A DNA stretch of 20,338 bases from the IMG/VR virus record IMGVR_UViG_3300024273_000183, positions 1 through 20,338 of that record; one strand, 5' to 3'. Of this stretch, positions 3,015 through 11,954 are shown piece by piece; the stretch's first letter is position 1; each line of letters opens with the position of its first letter. Both the position numbers and the translations under genes were made by a program. This DNA is from a virus. The notes beneath the pieces are model-generated. The model made no database searches, had not been told where the DNA came from, and saw only the letters and a program-made list of their open reading frames with translations.

Positions 3015-4196
3015 CTAAAATGCTAAGTAGTTATTCCCCATTGTACCGAACAACGCGTCATCCAACACTAAGAACGTCCAATCCAACGACGTCAACCCAA
3101 TCGTCACATCGTGACGTGACGCACTAATCGTCGAATCCAATTTGATGACCTGACCATACTGTGCAATCGGGTCGCCCACCCCATTAGGTGTGAACTTCAA
3201 CAACACCACGTCACCAAGTTCCAACCCCAACACGGTCACCTTGTCCGGTGCCGACAACGTGTCAACATTCATGCCAACGGATTGGATACGATATTCAGGT
3301 TCGGAAAACTTTTGCACCGTGAAATCTGCGAGGTTCTGCAACTGTGCCACAGTGGAAACGAGGGTTGCCGAATCTGTTTCGGTCACACCAAAGTTGGTGC
3401 GCGACGCCTGGTGCAAAGCCGTCGCCGTGCCCGCGTCGGATGTCACCGTCGCAGTGTTGACCAGCAACTCCGTCCCATAGTTCACATTGACCGAAGTGTA
3501 AGGGATACCCGTCCCATCATCCGCGAACGTAATCAACGAACCCGATGTTGGTGTTGCGTCGAGACGGCCACGGAAACGCAAATCGCCAGCCTTACCAATG
3601 AACACGTCACCAGCTTCAGACGTTGCAACCTTGTTCAGATAGTCCAACGCGTTCCCATCGAACACGTCCGCCCCAAGTGTGGAAGCCCCCACGTCAATGT
3701 CGCGTGACTTCGTCCAATCCACGGACACCATGTCCAACACCGCACCAACACGCTCACCCGACAGTTGTGGGGTTGCGGTCCCCGCCGTCAATTGTTGACG
3801 TGCGAGCAACGTGAAATCGTCCGACGCAACGAGGGCAGCCTTCGACCGGCCGGATGGGTCGTAGCTGAAATTCCAGTCATCGATGATGCCCGTGAACTGT
3901 CTCACACTATCAACGGTCAAACGGACTTGGCGGCGTGGAACAATGTCCCCGAAGTAGGGTGACAACGAATACAACGGGTCAAAATGGCGGTTCTCATTAT
4001 TCAGGGAAACACTCATCGCACCGGCAGAATATCTGTCCAGGTCACGGTTCTTCCCCCGTGTCACCTGCAAATCAATTACGGCGGACGTGATGTCCTTGAA
4101 CACTGTCCCACCAAGTTCCGACGTGTCCAACAAACCATCCAGGTGGTCGTCAAGGATGAACCCCTCGGTTGCCCCAATTTCTACAACGGTCGCCAT
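3015..4196 (-). CDS. Minor tail / baseplate-hub-like protein
   Basis: A 393-residue protein immediately downstream of the tape measure gene, sharing TAATG with it. The N-terminal third contains the lines VTRGKNRDLDRYSAGAMSVS, NENRHFDPLYSLSPYFGDIV and RQVRLTV with FTGIIDDW. These are typical of minor tail proteins that form a tail-tip hub in actinophages (the Gp37-like/baseplate-hub group). Such proteins attach to the end of the tail tube and carry the receptor apparatus. The C-terminal third is beta-rich (PEYRIQSVGMNV, LELGDVVLLKFTPNG). No peptidase or lytic motif is visible. No separate distal-tail or tail-associated lysin gene is seen, so this protein may cover those roles in a compact tip. 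Confidence 0.8.
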   Translation of the reverse strand: MATVVEIGATEGFILDDHLDGLLDTSELGGTVFKDITSAVIDLQVTRGKNRDLDRYSAGAMSVSLNNENRHFDPLYSLSPYFGDIVPRRQVRLTVDSVRQFTGIIDDWNFSYDPSGRSKAALVASDDFTLLARQQLTAGTATPQLSGERVGAVLDMVSVDWTKSRDIDVGASTLGADVFDGNALDYLNKVATSEAGDVFIGKAGDLRFRGRLDATPTSGSLITFADDGTGIPYTSVNVNYGTELLVNTATVTSDAGTATALHQASRTNFGVTETDSATLVSTVAQLQNLADFTVQKFSEPEYRIQSVGMNVDTLSAPDKVTVLGLELGDVVLLKFTPNGVGDPIAQYGQVIKLDSTISASRHDVTIGLTSLDWTFLVLDDALFGTMGNNYLAF

Positions 4197-6466
4197 TACG
4201 CCCTCGCGAACACGGGACCTGAAGAACGCTCATAAGATTTGATGGCCTTAATGACAGCCTCCCCAACCCGCGCCCCATCGGAACCCATCCCAGCGTTCAC
4301 CGTGATGTTATATGTTGACCCTAACCCGTTGGCCTTGTCCAATGGGATAATCGCTTCCGGTCCAGCCTCACCCACCATTCCGATTAGGGGACTTGTGACA
4401 ATGCCACCCTTAGCGAAAGCGGACACGGATTGGAAGTTTTCAGCGCCGAACATGTTTATCCCAAACTTGTTATCCAACGCCGTCCTAGCAGCCGTGGTGT
4501 TCAACCCGCCACCCGCGAAGAAGCTCGACGCGCCCCTCTCTCGCATCCCGCCACCACCAGAATCGAACGGTCCACCAGAATACCGGCCAAGAACATCCCG
4601 CACCCCAGTTGTGTCAACATTCCCGAAACGCATATTGTCATACTTTCCGGGCAAGTCTAACCGGTCGAAAGAAACCTGGGAAGCATCGAAATCAATCTGG
4701 ACACCCGGCAAAGAGTTGGCCTTGTCAATGAACCATTCCAGCCCACGGAGCGCGCCGTTAATCCAGTTTTCCATGTGGTCAATCATTAAGTTGAATGTGG
4801 TCGCCCAAGCAACCCTCATGTTGTAAACAAAATCTTCGAAGTCTCCAGAGAACTTCCCTAGGGATTCCATCAAACGGCCCAACCCAAAGTTGGTGAACAT
4901 TTCCATTGCCAACGGGAGGATGACCGACATCATCTCCGCGAACAAACCTAACGCTGGGATGACCACATCAACAAGTAGCGCTTCCAGTAGTGGCAGAACA
5001 TAATCCAGCAACGGGAGGAACATTTCAATGAGTTCCAACACAATCGGGATGATGGTTTCTAGAAGTTTCATGAACACCGGGAACGCAGCCTCGATGATGG
5101 GTTGCAGTGTGTCCGCGATGTCCATCAACACGGGTGCAAGCATTTCCAAGGCGTCACCAATGAACTCAGCCAGGACGCCCGTGAGGTCCGCAAACATTGG
5201 CATAAGAACATCCAACAACGCGATGACCGGTGGGAGTACCGTGGAAACAATTTCCATGAACACCCTGGCAATGTCACCAATTATGGGGATGATGGGGGAC
5301 AACGATTGGAGCAACGCCGGGAGTGAACCTAGAAGGTCGCTGATTACCGGACCCAACTCCGTGAACAAGTCCTGCAACAAAACACCGACGGTTGCAATCA
5401 CCGGACCGAGGTCGTCCAACACGGACGCCGCAATGCCCAACATGATGTCACCGATGGGAAGCAATTGCGCCTTCGCGGTTTCCATAGCCTTAGCGAACTT
5501 GAACCCGACAGTTTCTTCCGTCGCAGCGAACGCCTCATCCAGCGCACCAATGTCGTCTGTCATGTTGTTGAAGATTGCGCGGGTGCCTTCGACGTTGGAA
5601 CCCATCAAGTCGAGAACACCAGATAGTGCGCGAATGTTTCCGAACACCGATGTCGTTGCCTCAATGTTGCCATCGAACGCGCCGGTCAGAGTTTCAAGTG
5701 TGGCGAGAAGCCCTTCTTCTTTGATTTGTGTCCGCAAACCCTCCGCAGACAAACCCATCCCAGCAAGAGATGCCTCAGCCTCCGACGTAGGCTTAGCCAA
5801 TGTTGCCAAAATTTGACGCAACTGTGTGGCAGCCGTTGACGCGTCCGTACCCGTCCTAGACATTGCGGCCATCGCCGCACCAACCTCGTCAAAACCGACA
5901 CCCAACGCGGACGAGATGGGCAACACTTGCCCCATCGCACCAGCAAGTTCAGCCGGTTCCAACTTTCCTTCACGGACTGCCTCAGTGAGAACATCCACCG
6001 CCTTGGCACCATCTAGTTGTGCCGCACCGTAAGCGTTCACCGCCGACGTCGCAAGGTCAGCAATCGTCTTAGTGTCACCCAGTCCAGCCGCAGCACCCTT
6101 CAGAGATGCCTCAAGGACCACGATGGCGTCATTGCCGCGCAAACCCGCAGACGTAATGTAGAACAACGCTTCGGCGGCTTCGTTGGCCGACTTGCCGAAC
6201 TGTGGACCTAACGTCTTAGCGGCTTCCTCCAACGCCCCAATCTGGCTGGAGGCAACACCGACTAGACCCTTTATCTTCGCGAAGCTTGTTTCAAACTCCG
6301 CAGACATTTTCAGGGCAGCCCCACCGATGGCACCGATGGCGACAACCGAGGCCAACCCGATTTTCCCTGCCATCGCACCGAACTTCTTCAGTGACCCGGA
6401 AGCGTTGTTTATTCCTTTGTTGTTGAACTTTGAAACAATGTTCAGACGAATTGGACCGCCAGCCAT
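4196..6466 (-). CDS. Tape measure protein (TP901-like)
   Basis: A 756-residue protein that sets tail length and fills the tail tube before DNA ejection. Residues about 55-300 match the conserved TP901 tape measure core: MSAEFETSFAKIKGLVG, then EAAEALFYITSAGLRG and an MAAMSRTGTDASTAATQLRQ-like block. Residues about 340-530 form a long hydrophobic alpha-helical stretch with a recurring L-P-x-I/V/L pattern (LGPVI, LSPIIPII, LPPVIALL, LAPVL, LQPII, FPVF, LPLL). Near the C-terminus AFAKGGIVTSPLIG with EAGPEAIIPL (residues 683-709) is a well-known tape measure ending. The start has a GGGAG ribosome site. The frameshifted chaperone pair nearby is its usual partner. The tail should be of medium length by the rule that tail length scales with protein length. 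Confidence 0.95.
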   Translation of the reverse strand: MAGGPIRLNIVSKFNNKGINNASGSLKKFGAMAGKIGLASVVAIGAIGGAALKMSAEFETSFAKIKGLVGVASSQIGALEEAAKTLGPQFGKSANEAAEALFYITSAGLRGNDAIVVLEASLKGAAAGLGDTKTIADLATSAVNAYGAAQLDGAKAVDVLTEAVREGKLEPAELAGAMGQVLPISSALGVGFDEVGAAMAAMSRTGTDASTAATQLRQILATLAKPTSEAEASLAGMGLSAEGLRTQIKEEGLLATLETLTGAFDGNIEATTSVFGNIRALSGVLDLMGSNVEGTRAIFNNMTDDIGALDEAFAATEETVGFKFAKAMETAKAQLLPIGDIMLGIAASVLDDLGPVIATVGVLLQDLFTELGPVISDLLGSLPALLQSLSPIIPIIGDIARVFMEIVSTVLPPVIALLDVLMPMFADLTGVLAEFIGDALEMLAPVLMDIADTLQPIIEAAFPVFMKLLETIIPIVLELIEMFLPLLDYVLPLLEALLVDVVIPALGLFAEMMSVILPLAMEMFTNFGLGRLMESLGKFSGDFEDFVYNMRVAWATTFNLMIDHMENWINGALRGLEWFIDKANSLPGVQIDFDASQVSFDRLDLPGKYDNMRFGNVDTTGVRDVLGRYSGGPFDSGGGGMRERGASSFFAGGGLNTTAARTALDNKFGINMFGAENFQSVSAFAKGGIVTSPLIGMVGEAGPEAIIPLDKANGLGSTYNITVNAGMGSDGARVGEAVIKAIKSYERSSGPVFARA

Positions 6467-6474
6467 GATTCTCC

Positions 6475-7059
6475 CTAGACTCTAAATTTGTTGTTGTATG
6501 ACGCCATTAGGTCGTTTATGATTTTGCGTGATGTTTCAACAATGAAAGGTTTCTGACTCAAGAAACTGTCATAGGCGTAACGGCCAGCCTTGCCACGAAT
6601 CGGCTTGTCAGCGTTCAACCCGCGAATGAACGCGTCACCCTGACCTGTGACACGGTGAGTCATCTCCCTCGACCTGCCCCCACCCTTGACGCGTCTAGTG
6701 TACGGTTTGGAAACCGTCGCACCGGGCAACCGGCGGATGCCAGCAAGCTCCGCATAATCGAAACCTAGTTTGTTCTTGCCACCCGTGACAGTAATACGCA
6801 ACAAACTGTTCGTTCGTTTCTTAGAAAACCCGGGAGTGAACTCGACCTTCGGTTTGTTGATATGTTTCCACTTGGTTCCACCACGGGAGTTCATCCCCGA
6901 CAACGGCGCTTCTTTAGGCACGTCGGCCTGAATCTTCGCAACAACGGGAGCTAACCCGGCCCGCAACTTTACCCGCAACAACGACACAGACTTGGGGTCG
7001 ATAGTTTTCAGCTCACGGATAGCATAATTCAGGGACGAACGGTCCACGACAATGTCCAA
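6475..7059 (-). CDS. Tail completion / HK97 gp10-like protein, TTG start
   Basis: A 194-residue basic protein between the chaperone pair and the tape measure. The start appears to be TTG with GGAG seven bases upstream; a GTG four codons further in is the alternative. The N-terminal half (LNYAIRELKTIDPKSVSLLR, VAKIQADVPKEAPLSG) resembles the start of HK97 gp10-like tail completion and minor tail proteins, in which a helix is followed by a PxxTGxL-like loop. The middle is very rich in Lys and Arg (KPYTRRVKGGGRSREM). The C-terminus carries FIVETSRKIINDLMASYN, another helix. Location after the chaperone rather than before the tail tube is less usual for gp10, so a minor tail role is possible too. 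A 12-mer repeat ends 21 bases upstream. Confidence 0.6.
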   Translation of the reverse strand: MDIVVDRSSLNYAIRELKTIDPKSVSLLRVKLRAGLAPVVAKIQADVPKEAPLSGMNSRGGTKWKHINKPKVEFTPGFSKKRTNSLLRITVTGGKNKLGFDYAELAGIRRLPGATVSKPYTRRVKGGGRSREMTHRVTGQGDAFIRGLNADKPIRGKAGRYAYDSFLSQKPFIVETSRKIINDLMASYNNKFRV

Positions 7060-7079: not shown

Positions 7080-7091
7080 TCTATTCTACCG
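7080..7091 (-). promoter_or_regulatory. Repeated 12-mer, candidate late -10 element (copy 2)
   Basis: The minus strand reads CGGTAGAATAGA, identical to copies at 8975 and 16853. TAGAAT resembles a -10 box; the predicted start would leave a leader of about 17 nt holding the GGAG ribosome site of the 194-residue gene. It overlaps the stop codon of the frameshift extension. No clear -35 is present, so activity is unproven. Confidence 0.4.
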
Positions 7092-7250
7092 GCGACCCTG
7101 TGCCCGCTTCGACTTGCCAACCATATAACGCTGAATGGTGAACAACATCCGAGGTTCCAGGTTCAACAACTCAGTCGGAGACAAACCCGTCTCGACCGCA
7201 ATCGTCGCAACCAACCAATGCATCGAATCATCTCCGATGCCCTTGATTAT
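7086..7250 (-). CDS. -1 frameshift extension of the tail assembly chaperone (gpT-like)
   Basis: This is not an independent gene: it is the 54-residue extension read when ribosomes slip back one base at the end of the 82-residue chaperone. It reads IIKGIGDDSMHWLVATIAVE, then TGLSPTELLNLEPRMLFTIQ and RYMVGKSKRAQGRR, and ends at TAG. The ETGLSPTELLNLEPRML stretch is typical of the second half of siphophage chaperones. The frame has no stop from the slip site onward and overlaps the zero frame only at the heptamer. The fused product would be about 136 residues. In lambda the equivalent gpGT recruits the tape measure protein and tube subunits. It is followed by the tail completion gene, in the usual order. 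Confidence 0.85.
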   Translation of the reverse strand: MIKGIGDDSMHWLVATIAVETGLSPTELLNLEPRMLFTIQRYMVGKSKRAQGRR

Positions 7251-7256
7251 TTTGGG
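7220..7256 (-). other. Programmed -1 ribosomal frameshift signal (CCCAAAA plus hairpin)
   Basis: On the minus strand the zero-frame codons AAC CCA AAA TAA contain the canonical slippery heptamer C CCA AAA (7256-7250), directly before the stop. Nine nt after it lies GCATCG (7240-7235), which pairs perfectly with CGATGC (7225-7220). A G-U and an A-U pair can extend the stem to 8 bp with loop GATGA. Heptamer phase, spacing and hairpin all fit the established X XXY YYZ mechanism. The frequency of slippage cannot be seen from sequence. Confidence 0.87.
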
Positions 7257-7495
7257 TTAGCCGCCTCAACACTTTCGACATCTAGAAGCCATTCTTCGAA
7301 CGGCTTAGCCGTCGCCTTGGTGCGGTTCTCCACAGCCCAAGCGAGGAAGAAAAGGTGTGTGAGTTTCGCATCCTTTTGGAGACGCGACATCGACATGTCG
7401 AACTTGGTTTCGAACGCAACAATGTCCGCTGCGATACCAGTGACCAGTTTGGGTGTGTCTTGACCTGAATAGTGAATGTTTAGACTGAAGTTCAT
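7247..7495 (-). CDS. Tail assembly chaperone, zero-frame product (gpG-like)
   Basis: An 82-residue protein between the tail tube gene and the tape measure, where siphophages encode the short chaperone made without frameshifting. It is helical with a central DMSMSRLQKDAKLTHLFFLA and a C-terminal EEWLLDVESVEAANPK. The WAVEN...FEEWLLD segment is like other actinophage chaperones, which predict that 80-110 residues are followed by a slip. The gene ends in the slippery CCA AAA TAA. The 5' region lacks a strong ribosome site (ACTGGCG only). In other phages the two forms are made in a fixed ratio and neither is found in the virion. Function is assigned by position, size and the slip signal rather than by a conserved catalytic motif. 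Confidence 0.87.
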   Translation of the reverse strand: MNFSLNIHYSGQDTPKLVTGIAADIVAFETKFDMSMSRLQKDAKLTHLFFLAWAVENRTKATAKPFEEWLLDVESVEAANPK

Positions 7496-7514: not shown

Positions 7515-7931
7515 TTACGCAGTTCCGCGTGTGACTCCCGCAGTTCCAGCAAGGTTCCAGGAAACGGAAACGGTGGCCAAGTCACCAATCGATGAGCTAA
7601 ATGGGCTATAGGAGGAGCATAAAAATTCAGCCGTGTATGTCGGGTTAGTTGCCGACACAGCGCCCGAAGTAGGCTTCACAACCACAGTCGCGTTCGAACC
7701 GAGCAGCGGGAGCAAGGTGGCGTCAATCGATGCAGCCCCAAAGTCCTGGTGGAAGTCTAGTGTGATGCTCGCATCTTTTAGTCCACCAATGCGCGAACGG
7801 TAACCGGAACCGCCGAAAGCGGTGGTGTCCTGCTCGTCTACGCTAATGTCCCAAGTCACGGCGGCAATGCTGGAAGAAAAGTCCGTGCCGTTGATTGTAA
7901 TGTTATAGTCTGTGGCGACGAAACGTGCCAT
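7515..7931 (-). CDS. Major tail (tube) protein
   Basis: A 138-residue beta-rich protein just before the chaperone pair, the fixed position of the tail tube subunit. Its opening MARFVATDYNITINGTDFSS, then AVTWDISVDEQDTTAFG and GGLKDASITLDFHQDFGA, are typical of short tube proteins in actinophages, where the ASI/VTL..F.QD block forms one of the sheets of the tube fold. The last part (FLCSSYSPFSSSIGDLATVS and SWNLAGTAGVTRG) ends in a flexible tail. The start is an ATG with GGGG eight bases ahead. At 138 residues it lacks the extra C-terminal immunoglobulin-like domain found in larger tube proteins. Many copies should assemble around the tape measure. Confidence 0.87.
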   Translation of the reverse strand: MARFVATDYNITINGTDFSSSIAAVTWDISVDEQDTTAFGGSGYRSRIGGLKDASITLDFHQDFGAASIDATLLPLLGSNATVVVKPTSGAVSATNPTYTAEFLCSSYSPFSSSIGDLATVSVSWNLAGTAGVTRGTA

Positions 7932-9028: not shown

Positions 9029-9057
9029 TTGTGTTTTGTGTTCGTGGTGTGTATAGT
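9029..9057 (+). promoter_or_regulatory. Plus-strand promoter, TTGTGT-17-TATAGT
   Basis: TTGTGT (9029-9034), a 17 nt spacer and TATAGT (9052-9057) form a good sigma-70-like promoter. An A-tract at 9008-9015 lies where an UP element would. The same boxes with the same spacing occur at 13233-13261, and alignment of the two regions (9014-9070 against 13218-13274) is gap-free with about two thirds identity. The predicted start is near 9064, giving a 30 nt leader to the downstream ATG. Confidence 0.75.
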
Positions 9058-9093
9058 TATATACATAAGGCAACACCAACCGAAAGGAACATC

Positions 9094-9372
9094 ATGACCA
9101 CCAAGGCAGTCACAACCAGCACAATCGGAAGCATCGTCCGCAACGCCGTCGGACCCTACCAGTACCGCACACGCGGCACCAAGAACTTCATCTCCGGCGT
9201 CGAGGTCCAAGGAAACACCGGCAACATTGTCGCCAGGTTTGTCAACTATTCAGGCCTCGATGACTCTTACATCGACAACAAGGAAGAACTGCTAGTCACC
9301 ACCCAAGCCGCACTGGAGGCCAGCGGTTACAACACGAGTCGCGAGGGTAACGCCATCAGAGTCACAGCCTAA
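9094..9372 (+). CDS. Unknown 92-residue protein on the opposite strand to the late operon
   Basis: I do not recognise this protein. It starts MTTKAVTTSTIGSIVRNAVG; the ATG is chosen because GAAAGGAA (9082-9089) lies at the right distance and the 30 nt leader starts at a good promoter. An upstream extension from 9031 would begin inside the promoter. The protein has no cysteines and no membrane segment. The sequence GVEVQGNTGNIVARFVNYSG followed by LLVTTQAALEASGYNTSREG looks like a small alpha/beta fold. It is transcribed against the late genes and lies between the sugar cassette and the connector gene, with its own promoter and a strong terminator. This moron-like arrangement suggests expression at another time than the virion genes. 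Confidence 0.82.
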   Translation: MTTKAVTTSTIGSIVRNAVGPYQYRTRGTKNFISGVEVQGNTGNIVARFVNYSGLDDSYIDNKEELLVTTQAALEASGYNTSREGNAIRVTA

Positions 9373-9410: not shown

Positions 9411-10061
9411 CTATTTGTCCCAACTATTCACACGACGACGGCCCAAATCCCAGCGACCTTCGGACACATCACCACGGGAAACCTTCCCCTCGTAATAGTC
9501 ACGATTGTTCACAAACGTCGCATCGTTCAATTGTTGCAACCGCGCATCCGACTTGATGGTCGACGAATTATCATGACCGATAACAACATCCAATTTGCGG
9601 ACCGGGACACCAAAATGTTCACAACGTCGTTTCATGTCGTTGTCCTCGAAGTAGGCCGGGTATAACGACTCGTCGAACAAACCGACCCGTCTCAGCGCCT
9701 CGTCACCGACCGAGAACACGTGCCAGAAGGGAAAGTCCCCGGATAGGACTATCTCGTCCCTACCGGCGTCACACAGCTTCTCAAGGGCACCTGGACCAAA
9801 CCATGCATCGTTCGACGCAAACAACCACTTGTTGTGCTGCGGAAACAGCTTCACCCCAAGATTCCACGACCCAGACACCCCAAGGTTCGACGGCAACGGC
9901 ACAATGTGCGAGTTCAGAACATAATCAGGGAACCGCAACCTATCCACCTGCCCACCATTATCAATGATGAGCAAATCCCCAACCGGGAAGTCAATCGAAT
10001 CCAAAAGCCTTTGGAGCAGGTCGTAACGGTTCAACACCGGAATGATGATGTTAGGAATCAT
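9411..10061 (-). CDS. GT2-like glycosyltransferase
   Basis: A 216-residue protein. I start it at ATG 10061, which overlaps the TAA of the upstream gene (TAATG), rather than at a frame 30 codons longer that lies inside that gene. It has GT-A fold features in order: IPNIIIPVLNRYDLLQRLLD at the N-terminus, GDLLIIDNGG with D34 for nucleotide-sugar binding, LPSNLGVSGSWNLGV, then WLFASNDAWF in the place of the DxD metal motif, and LYPAYFEDNDMKRRCEHFG with E139/D140/D142 as the likely catalytic base region. It would transfer a sugar from a nucleotide donor to an unknown acceptor. Phage-encoded transferases near capsid genes are known to glycosylate virion proteins in some actinophages. The substrate here is unknown. 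Confidence 0.87.
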   Translation of the reverse strand: MIPNIIIPVLNRYDLLQRLLDSIDFPVGDLLIIDNGGQVDRLRFPDYVLNSHIVPLPSNLGVSGSWNLGVKLFPQHNKWLFASNDAWFGPGALEKLCDAGRDEIVLSGDFPFWHVFSVGDEALRRVGLFDESLYPAYFEDNDMKRRCEHFGVPVRKLDVVIGHDNSSTIKSDARLQQLNDATFVNNRDYYEGKVSRGDVSEGRWDLGRRRVNSWDK

Positions 10062-10726
10062 TAGACGCCCTGGAACGTGTGGCCTTCGAGGTTGAAGTTC
10101 ACAAACGGGTTCAACGAATACACGTTCGCCCCAAACTTGTCCCCAACCCACTTTTTCATCGTCATCAAATGGTTGTTATACAACTGCCACGGGTTATGCC
10201 CCACAGGGTAACCATCGACACGGTGGGCACCATCAATCGTCCCACAGTCAGCCCCAACCAACATGATGTTCTTCGCGCCCATATATGCGGCCAAATGGAT
10301 TGACCCATGAATGGATGACGAACCGAACACCAGCTCATCATCTTTGGAATGGTGGAACGGGTTGAAACTTGAACCCAACGGGTTGGTGAACGATAGCTTG
10401 TTGATGGTCACACTCTCTGGTGGAGGGTTACCGAAACACCACTCACCTTCCCCATAGAATCCCGTCCCTGACCAACGTGTCGAACACAAGTCATGTGTGA
10501 ACGCATGCAACAACCCAGGGTTCAACAACTGCCGGTTCACCGCCGGATGGTAATGGCTGAAAAGATAGAACTGTTGCAACGGCAGATGTTCCGCCACCAG
10601 GTTCGTTGACACACAAATCTTGTCATCGAAAAACGCTGGGTCCAGGAACCCGACCGACGCGCCGGAACCAAACACCCAAATGGTTTCACCCTCATGGATG
10701 TTCTTGAAATCTTGAAGTTCAGACAT
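10061..10726 (-). CDS. DUF115/MptE-like Rossmann protein, possible sugar transferase
   Basis: A 221-residue protein between two glycosyltransferases. It opens with GETIWVFGSGASVGFLDP (a Gly-rich nucleotide-binding turn, residues 13-30), followed by KICVSTNLVA. A second conserved block lies at residues 137-160, SSIHGSIHLAAYMGAKNIML then VGADCG. This layout (FGSGxS...N..., later A..LAxxMGxxxIxLVGxD) is that of the DUF115/MptE-like group and is related in pattern to GT42-type enzymes. DUF115 proteins elsewhere take part in surface sugar or flagellin glycosylation, which fits the neighbours. Specific activity is not known. It overlaps the GT4-like gene by 8 bases and shares TAATG with the GT2-like gene, so all three are probably made together. 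Confidence 0.68.
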   Translation of the reverse strand: MSELQDFKNIHEGETIWVFGSGASVGFLDPAFFDDKICVSTNLVAEHLPLQQFYLFSHYHPAVNRQLLNPGLLHAFTHDLCSTRWSGTGFYGEGEWCFGNPPPESVTINKLSFTNPLGSSFNPFHHSKDDELVFGSSSIHGSIHLAAYMGAKNIMLVGADCGTIDGAHRVDGYPVGHNPWQLYNNHLMTMKKWVGDKFGANVYSLNPFVNFNLEGHTFQGV

Positions 10727-11906
10727 AGAAGTCTTTCAGCATGGGCATCCAATACTTCTTCCACACTTTTTCCACATCGTATTGTTTCGCGAACTTGATT
10801 GACGGGAGACTGATTCCTCGCGGTTCCTTGTAGGCCAACTCTAGTGAGTTCGCGATAGAAGGAATCAACGGGATTTGAAAGAACGAGGCTTGGGGTTCAT
10901 CCCAGAATGGTTGCCCATCGACCAGGAACGAATCCGGTCCGGCAAGGTCCACTGAGGCCGTCCAGTTCGACGTGATGATACGTGTCCCGCACGCTTGCGC
11001 CTCAATACTGCAAACACCAAACCCTTCACCCAACGTCGCGTTCAACACAACATCGGATGCGGTATAGAACGCCGCTAAATGTTCCTGCGAATACCCGACA
11101 CGTAACGCGGTCGCGTTAGCTAAGATGACGTCCTTATCTGTCAACCCCAACGCCTTCACAATGACGGGAATGTTGAACCCGCCGAACATCGGCGACCCTT
11201 CCATGTGCAAATACAACATCGCGTCCTTGTGTGTTTGCTTGAAAATGCTGAACGCCATAATCTGTTCGACTAAAGCTTTCCTGTGCAATATCCCGTTAGA
11301 CTTGTTCGCAGCGAAAATGGACACCAAGAACTGGTCATCCTTCACACCCATGAACTCACGTGTCGGAACACCATCAATCGTGTGTGTCGGTGTGAACACT
11401 TTCGTGTCAACCGAGTGAGGTGCATACACGGATTCAATGTCACGCGCCTCCAACATGCGTTGACCATGCGCCGACATTGTGACCGGTGTCACGTTCTCGC
11501 GCAACAAAAACTTGTGGACCAACGGTGGCATGGTGAGATGGTCGATGGGGACATAGGCGAAGATGGGGTCGTCGAACACCAGCCGGTCGTAAACCCAAAC
11601 GTCATACAGGGTCATTATGGCTGACTTCAACCCTGGGTTTTGTGACTTCCAATCGTCATGCCACAACTTGATGACATCGTCCGAATAAGGTTTGAACCCC
11701 TTCGGGTAATGCATGACGTCACCATGTTCGGTGTGAATCTTGTCGAACCGTCCCTCCAGCCCATAGTTCGATTGCACCGCAGTCCGTAGTCCTTGACGGA
11801 CGAACCGGTCGACCAGATATTTTGCTTGCGTACCGTAACCGGTAGCAGCTCCGGGACTATTCGAAACGAGGCTTATGACACCCTTGAGTTGTTCGTTAGC
11901 TTCCAT
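10719..11906 (-). CDS. GT4-like (GT-B fold) glycosyltransferase
   Basis: A 395-residue protein starting MEANEQLKGVISLVSNSPGA. This ATG is preferred over an ATG/GTG-type start 33 bases further up because that would lie inside the capsid terminator. The N-terminal domain has a Gly-rich donor loop (SPGAATGYGTQAKYLVDRF), and FAYVPIDH and YAPHSVDTKVF lie near the domain boundary. The C-terminal domain contains the retaining GT4 signature EGFGVCSIEAQACGT, with E294 and E302 in the E-x7-E arrangement, preceded by SDVVLNATLG. It would use an activated sugar to start or extend a glycan. It follows the capsid gene and begins the sugar cassette. Donor, acceptor and virion target are unknown. Confidence 0.88.
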   Translation of the reverse strand: MEANEQLKGVISLVSNSPGAATGYGTQAKYLVDRFVRQGLRTAVQSNYGLEGRFDKIHTEHGDVMHYPKGFKPYSDDVIKLWHDDWKSQNPGLKSAIMTLYDVWVYDRLVFDDPIFAYVPIDHLTMPPLVHKFLLRENVTPVTMSAHGQRMLEARDIESVYAPHSVDTKVFTPTHTIDGVPTREFMGVKDDQFLVSIFAANKSNGILHRKALVEQIMAFSIFKQTHKDAMLYLHMEGSPMFGGFNIPVIVKALGLTDKDVILANATALRVGYSQEHLAAFYTASDVVLNATLGEGFGVCSIEAQACGTRIITSNWTASVDLAGPDSFLVDGQPFWDEPQASFFQIPLIPSIANSLELAYKEPRGISLPSIKFAKQYDVEKVWKKYWMPMLKDFYV

Positions 11907-11921
11907 GCCCCTAGCATACAG

Positions 11922-11954
11922 AAAACCCCCGTCGACCACTAGGACCGGCGGGGG
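11922..11954 (-). terminator. Terminator behind the capsid gene
   Basis: On the minus strand, 17 nt after the capsid stop codon, CCCCCG pairs with CGGGGG over a longer imperfect stem (CGGTC with GGTCG inside) and is followed by TTTTCTG. The hairpin lies between the capsid gene and the sugar cassette, so it probably limits readthrough and gives the capsid gene excess mRNA. Some readthrough is needed unless the cassette has its own promoter, which I do not see. Confidence 0.83.

Follow-up and report, generated by a model that had tools for sequence, protein, structure and literature searches.

In bacteriophage lambda, −1 slippage produces gpG and gpGT at a ratio of about 30:1, the binding partner of G being the tape measure protein and that of T the tail tube protein (PMC5009743). 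This layout is widely conserved among long-tailed phages, and the heptamers named as very shift-prone in E. coli include C_CCA_AAG, but not CCCAAAA (PMC5009743). Here, we analyzed the window, namely the whole 20,338 bases of an IMG/VR virus record, in which a junction of this type is located on the minus strand, and we propose that a siphovirus-type phage very probably expresses two tail assembly chaperones from a single start codon through −1 slippage at C CCA AAA. To judge from the sequence, the locus is supported as a new, previously unannotated case of the known lambda G/GT-type frameshift and not as a new mechanism.

The locus resembles lambda G/GT in that two products would arise from one start through a −1 slip at the end of the first frame, in that the gene lies between those of the major tail protein and the tape measure, and in that neither product is expected in the virion. 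However, the slip site is G_GGA_AAG in lambda and C_CCA_AAA in the window (A_AAA_AAA in relatives), the proteins of the window are much smaller (82 and 136 residues) and have no detectable sequence similarity to those of lambda, an extra gene precedes the tape measure gene, and the stop codon abuts the slip site.

Pontimonas phage phiPsal1 gp16 (MG835450) belongs to a homologous pair with the same −1 register and the same neighbors, showing 48.5% identity over both frames, although its site is A_AAA_AAA and no clear hairpin follows. Its database entry is a short hypothetical protein to which no frameshift is assigned, and the paper reporting phiPsal1 (PMC6106888), which describes the phage as no longer available, does not discuss the gene pair further. 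The preliminary description of the window anticipated that open reading frame callers would miss the fusion, and this is the case for phiPsal1 in GenBank, where only the short form appears and the start of the next gene has been placed within the extension in a wrong frame. The deposited start of that next gene, phiPsal1_017 (3338-3991 of locus L027), is a GTG within the −1 extension in the third frame, and the real start codon probably lies further downstream.

Gordonia phage Schiebs gp13/gp14 and Arthrobacter phage Maggie gp12, of family phrog_6889, share a related N domain and a C domain in the −1 frame, and the −1 frame gp14 of Schiebs matches the extension (hhalign E 2e-09). They differ in having no canonical XXXYYYZ in the 0/−1 overlap and in being annotated as separate or single genes. 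Both carry GTGGACCCTAC near the 0-frame end (Schiebs, L028, 2995-3395; Maggie, L105, 1357-1830), which may be a non-canonical slip site. EBPR siphovirus 6 gp13 (JF412301) has a similar −1 extension and a CCCTTTG heptamer in the overlap, but its slip site lies 24 nt before the 0-frame stop and its N domain is barely recognizable.

Results

The 0-frame gene begins with an ATG at 7495 and runs for 82 codons on the minus strand to a TAA ending at 7247, so that the putative short product, a gpG-like N domain, occupies 7247..7495. The gene terminates with C CCA AAA TAA, in which the TAA (7247..7249) is the codon right after the heptamer (7250..7256). The exact X XXY YYZ motif that had been described at the gene end is thus confirmed at 7256-7250, and it constitutes a canonical 0-frame heptamer of the kind used in programmed −1 frameshifting. 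In the −1 frame, a TAA immediately 5′ of CCC limits the 0/−1 overlap to CCC AAA, and after the slip the frame reads IIKGIGDD...QGRR for 54 residues up to the stop that ends at 7086, the extension with its stop thereby covering 7086..7250 (minus strand). As the −1 frame is closed right before CCC and open for 54 residues after it, a slip at exactly CCCAAAA would give a 136-residue fusion; the span 7086-7495 and the 82 plus 54 residues claimed for it were matched exactly on re-reading the sequence.

In 22 of the window's minus-strand genes, an XXXYYYZ heptamer stands in frame at 22 of 5543 positions (0.4%; 0.2% with Y being A or T), and CCCAAAA is the only one within the last five codons of any of these genes. 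Since only about one position is possible in the overlap, the chance of a heptamer there would be about 0.2-0.4% from the window alone, and with the relatives added it is negligible.

Relatives were collected by querying viral contigs with the 82-residue protein, which gave 25 loci, and by a profile search, which gave 80 loci; the junction set comprised 54 distinct sequences, that is, uncultivated phage contigs, the window and phiPsal1. No relatives were found in the bacterial genome collection, and hence neither a prophage nor a host link. The preliminary description had named the absence of the heptamer or of the −1 frame from homologues as what would tell against the frameshift, but in 53 of the 54 distinct junctions both are present and the register is identical, with a canonical in-frame heptamer (CCCAAAA or AAAAAAA) in the 0/−1 overlap. 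The spacing is invariant across the 53, as CCCAAAA lies 36 nt and AAAAAAA 33 nt 5′ of the His-Trp codons of the −1 domain; several relatives carry both heptamers together as CCCAAAAAAA, and the in-frame heptamer and the register hold in phiPsal1 too. The 0-frame stop of lineages L058 and L088 is shifted 12 nt downstream while the distance from the heptamer to the −1 domain is unchanged, as would be expected of selection acting on the slip point itself. The lone exception, L059, has an A7 run but misses one base just after it compared with the near-identical L063 (TGTGG versus TAGTGG at about 3239-3260), by which its 0 frame becomes 103 codons; this loss is probably a contig error, an indel at the homopolymer.

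The slip codons were excluded from the tree on which the heptamers were mapped; on it, the label A7-only required 7 changes, of which well-supported branches force at least 5, and the label CCC-only required 6, of which at least 4 are forced. The heptamer type has accordingly switched at least 4-5 times on the tree, with the register always kept and bridging CCCAAAAAAA forms present; the putative slip motif is replaced, not lost.

Selection and hairpin potential were evaluated in 33 representatives differing by more than 10% from one another. Over the extension, the −1 frame had a median pN/pS of 0.34 (the other two frames, 1.19 and 1.93), and changes were concentrated at the third codon positions of the −1 frame. 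This frame was free of stops in all 33 representatives, whereas stops occurred in the other frames in 32/33 and 29/33. By these sequence measures, and unlike the other two frames, the −1 frame is protein coding and under purifying selection, and a programmed −1 frameshift calls for just such a conserved coding frame downstream.

A potential structure lies a few nucleotides downstream of the heptamer in the window, namely the hairpin GCATCGGA-GATGA-TTCGATGC (7220..7240, minus strand), which begins 9 nt past the heptamer and is the probable stimulator. Its 6-bp stem, GCATCG/CGATGC, is extended by inward G-U and A-U pairs to 8 bp enclosing a 5-nt loop. In the minimum-free-energy fold, a predicted lower stem pairing UAAUCAA with UUGGUUG is added (7211..7249, minus strand) and begins directly at the 3′ end of the heptamer, and the 77-nt fold has −25.3 kcal/mol with a z of −2.1 versus dinucleotide shuffles.

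Stability was compared with a null of random synonymous codons over the 30 nt that contain the hairpin, and the window ranks with the strong cases (z −2.88, p 0.006). For the 33 representatives, which are related and hence not fully independent, the stability beyond codon need had a mean z of −1.15 and a Stouffer value of −6.6, versus 0.1 to −2.6 in six control windows further along the same sequences. The excess reached p<0.1 in about 14 of the 33 (about 40% of lineages) and did not in 19, phiPsal1 included; therefore, the hairpin is to be regarded as an optional helper and not as a universal element. The 6-bp stem, its 8-bp extension and the 9-nt spacing of the stimulatory hairpin initially described were thus borne out, but its role appears to be that of a lineage-specific helper rather than a constant one. 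The covariation signal is only mild because lineages use different hairpin registers: in one register, one pair, chosen post hoc, was Watson-Crick in 16/33 against a shuffled mean of 10.2 (p 0.008). No Rfam match was found within the window.

Another candidate stimulator is a GAGG at 7264..7267 (minus strand), 7 nt 5′ of the heptamer, which could act in a Shine-Dalgarno-like manner. In relatives, the Glu/Gln codon 11 nt 5′ of the CCC position is G-ending in 20/23 cases, versus 122/278 elsewhere (Fisher p 5e-5), and such a codon creates GAGG or CAGG before the slip site; as this bias was spotted post hoc and position −47 is skewed as well, the upstream motif is only a lead.

The chaperone gene is directly preceded by the major tail protein gene (7515..7931, minus strand; phrog_4574, E 3.9e-33) and is followed by a gene without family match (6475..7059, minus strand) and then by the tape measure protein gene (4196..6466, minus strand; phrog_991, E 5e-66; PF10145, E 9.3e-28). 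This order, major tail protein, chaperone gene, intermediate gene and tape measure, recurs in 29 of 32 loci. The position typical of G/GT, after the major tail protein gene and ahead of that of the tape measure, is thus kept, with one extra gene in between, and a short and a −1 extended product from one start are predicted by sequence only. The intermediate gene, which is unusual for the G/GT layout, is conserved in position, with tblastn matches in 29/32 loci and a 26%-identical gene there in phiPsal1.

With regard to protein identity, 18 of 19 members match phrog_6889 in the N domain (best 1.6e-7), and this family also includes Schiebs gp13, annotated as a tail assembly chaperone (E 5.8e-23), and Maggie gp12; a profile-profile match of the N domain to Schiebs gp13 was obtained as well (E 4.2e-07). 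Fold prediction on the two domains separately gave a beta-beta-alpha fold for the N domain (pLDDT 79) and three helices for the extension, the putative gpT-like C domain (pLDDT 89). Neither domain had a significant chaperone family match in Pfam or NCBIfam, the 19-member fusion alignment included, and the PDB sequence search with this alignment returned no significant chaperone match. Phage_TAC_7 was matched weakly, with E 0.01 for the best member and 0.12 for the extension of the window, while Foldseek and VIA-align found nothing above Z 3.5 in the PDB for either domain, a missing match that is not evidence of a new fold. We therefore assign the putative chaperone role from the gene place, the two-product layout and the phrog_6889 relatives, and not from a profile match. 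The tail chaperone and gpT-like identity proposed at the outset gains from the gene order, the arrangement and the phrog_6889 link, but not from any significant gpT or Pfam profile match.

Elsewhere in the window, three sugar-transfer genes lie within the structural operon between capsid and neck genes (9411-11939, minus strand), belonging to phrog_29879 (galactosyl transferase), weakly to phrog_4603 (sialyltransferase) and to phrog_2170 (glycosyltransferase), and phiPsal1 likewise has glycosyltransferases just ahead of the neck gene. Two plus-strand open frames occur in an otherwise minus-strand region, of which 13251-13850 matches phrog_4095, of unknown function (E 2.9e-14), and 9031-9372 has no match.

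Discussion

The slip site, the frames, the hairpin potential, the conservation and the gene order can be read directly from the DNA, and from them we infer that slippage takes place, at what kind of rate, and the roles of both proteins, as follows. The majority of ribosomes would terminate after the 82-residue G-like protein. The downstream hairpin, possibly together with an upstream GAGG contact, would pause ribosomes at C CCA AAA, and on a minority of them both tRNAs would slip back one base to yield the 136-residue G-T-like fusion. The lambda analogy suggests that the N domain would serve as a coat for the tape measure protein and that recruitment of the major tail protein would fall to the T-like tail.

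Separate translation of the −1 domain, from an internal start or by reinitiation after the TAA, could be suggested by an in-frame ATG in the window, which encodes the M of DDSMHW and is preceded at about 9 nt by a GGAG. However, an ATG of this type is present in just 12 of 33 representatives, and the only start-like codon found in all of them, the M of RML, lies 24 codons past His-Trp and would halve the domain, so that an internal start as a general mechanism is refuted by the non-conservation of the start codon. Separate translation would also leave unexplained the heptamer in exact register and its repeated swaps for another slippery heptamer, and we consider it very improbable. Transcriptional slippage on the A run, giving a mixed mRNA instead of ribosomal slippage, would suit the A7 or A8 found at the site in many relatives, but the window and several relatives have AAAA only (CCCAAAAT, CCCAAAAG), which is far too short for transcriptional slippage, and nevertheless keep the same layout. 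As the conserved CCC before the A run, moreover, fits tandem tRNA slippage only, this origin of the fusion is extremely improbable.

The window is a metagenomic contig, and L059 resembles an indel artefact at the same site, as it might if both frames were once one gene that has been split by a sequencing or assembly frameshift or by decay. The same −1 offset recurs in phiPsal1 and in 53 distinct sequences that come from many samples, which refutes this, and the extension is under purifying selection, leaving such an origin a practically nil probability. It could also be that a genuine frameshift yields a protein with a role other than that of a tail assembly chaperone, in line with the lack of a significant gpT/TAC profile match and with phrog_6889 being without assigned function. 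Against this stand the major tail protein and tape measure flanks in 29/32 loci, the two-product layout itself and the homology to Schiebs gp13 with its chaperone annotation, which make it very unlikely. The reading of two tail assembly chaperones produced by −1 ribosomal slippage is the one we adopt.

We further put forward, tentatively and as somewhat doubtful, that C_CCA_AAA and A_AAA_AAA are swapped via bridging CCC AAAAAAA at constant register while the hairpin and GAGG are gained and lost, whereby the slip site and the stimulator would trade off to hold the frameshift rate fixed. This natural series of junctions with interchangeable slip sites would be useful for testing how a slip site and a stimulator together set a ratio. 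Family phrog_6889, listed as of unknown function, is suggested to be a tail assembly chaperone. G/GT-type frameshifting would thus be extended to an uncultivated phage family related to Pontimonas phage phiPsal1, where annotation has missed the longer protein.
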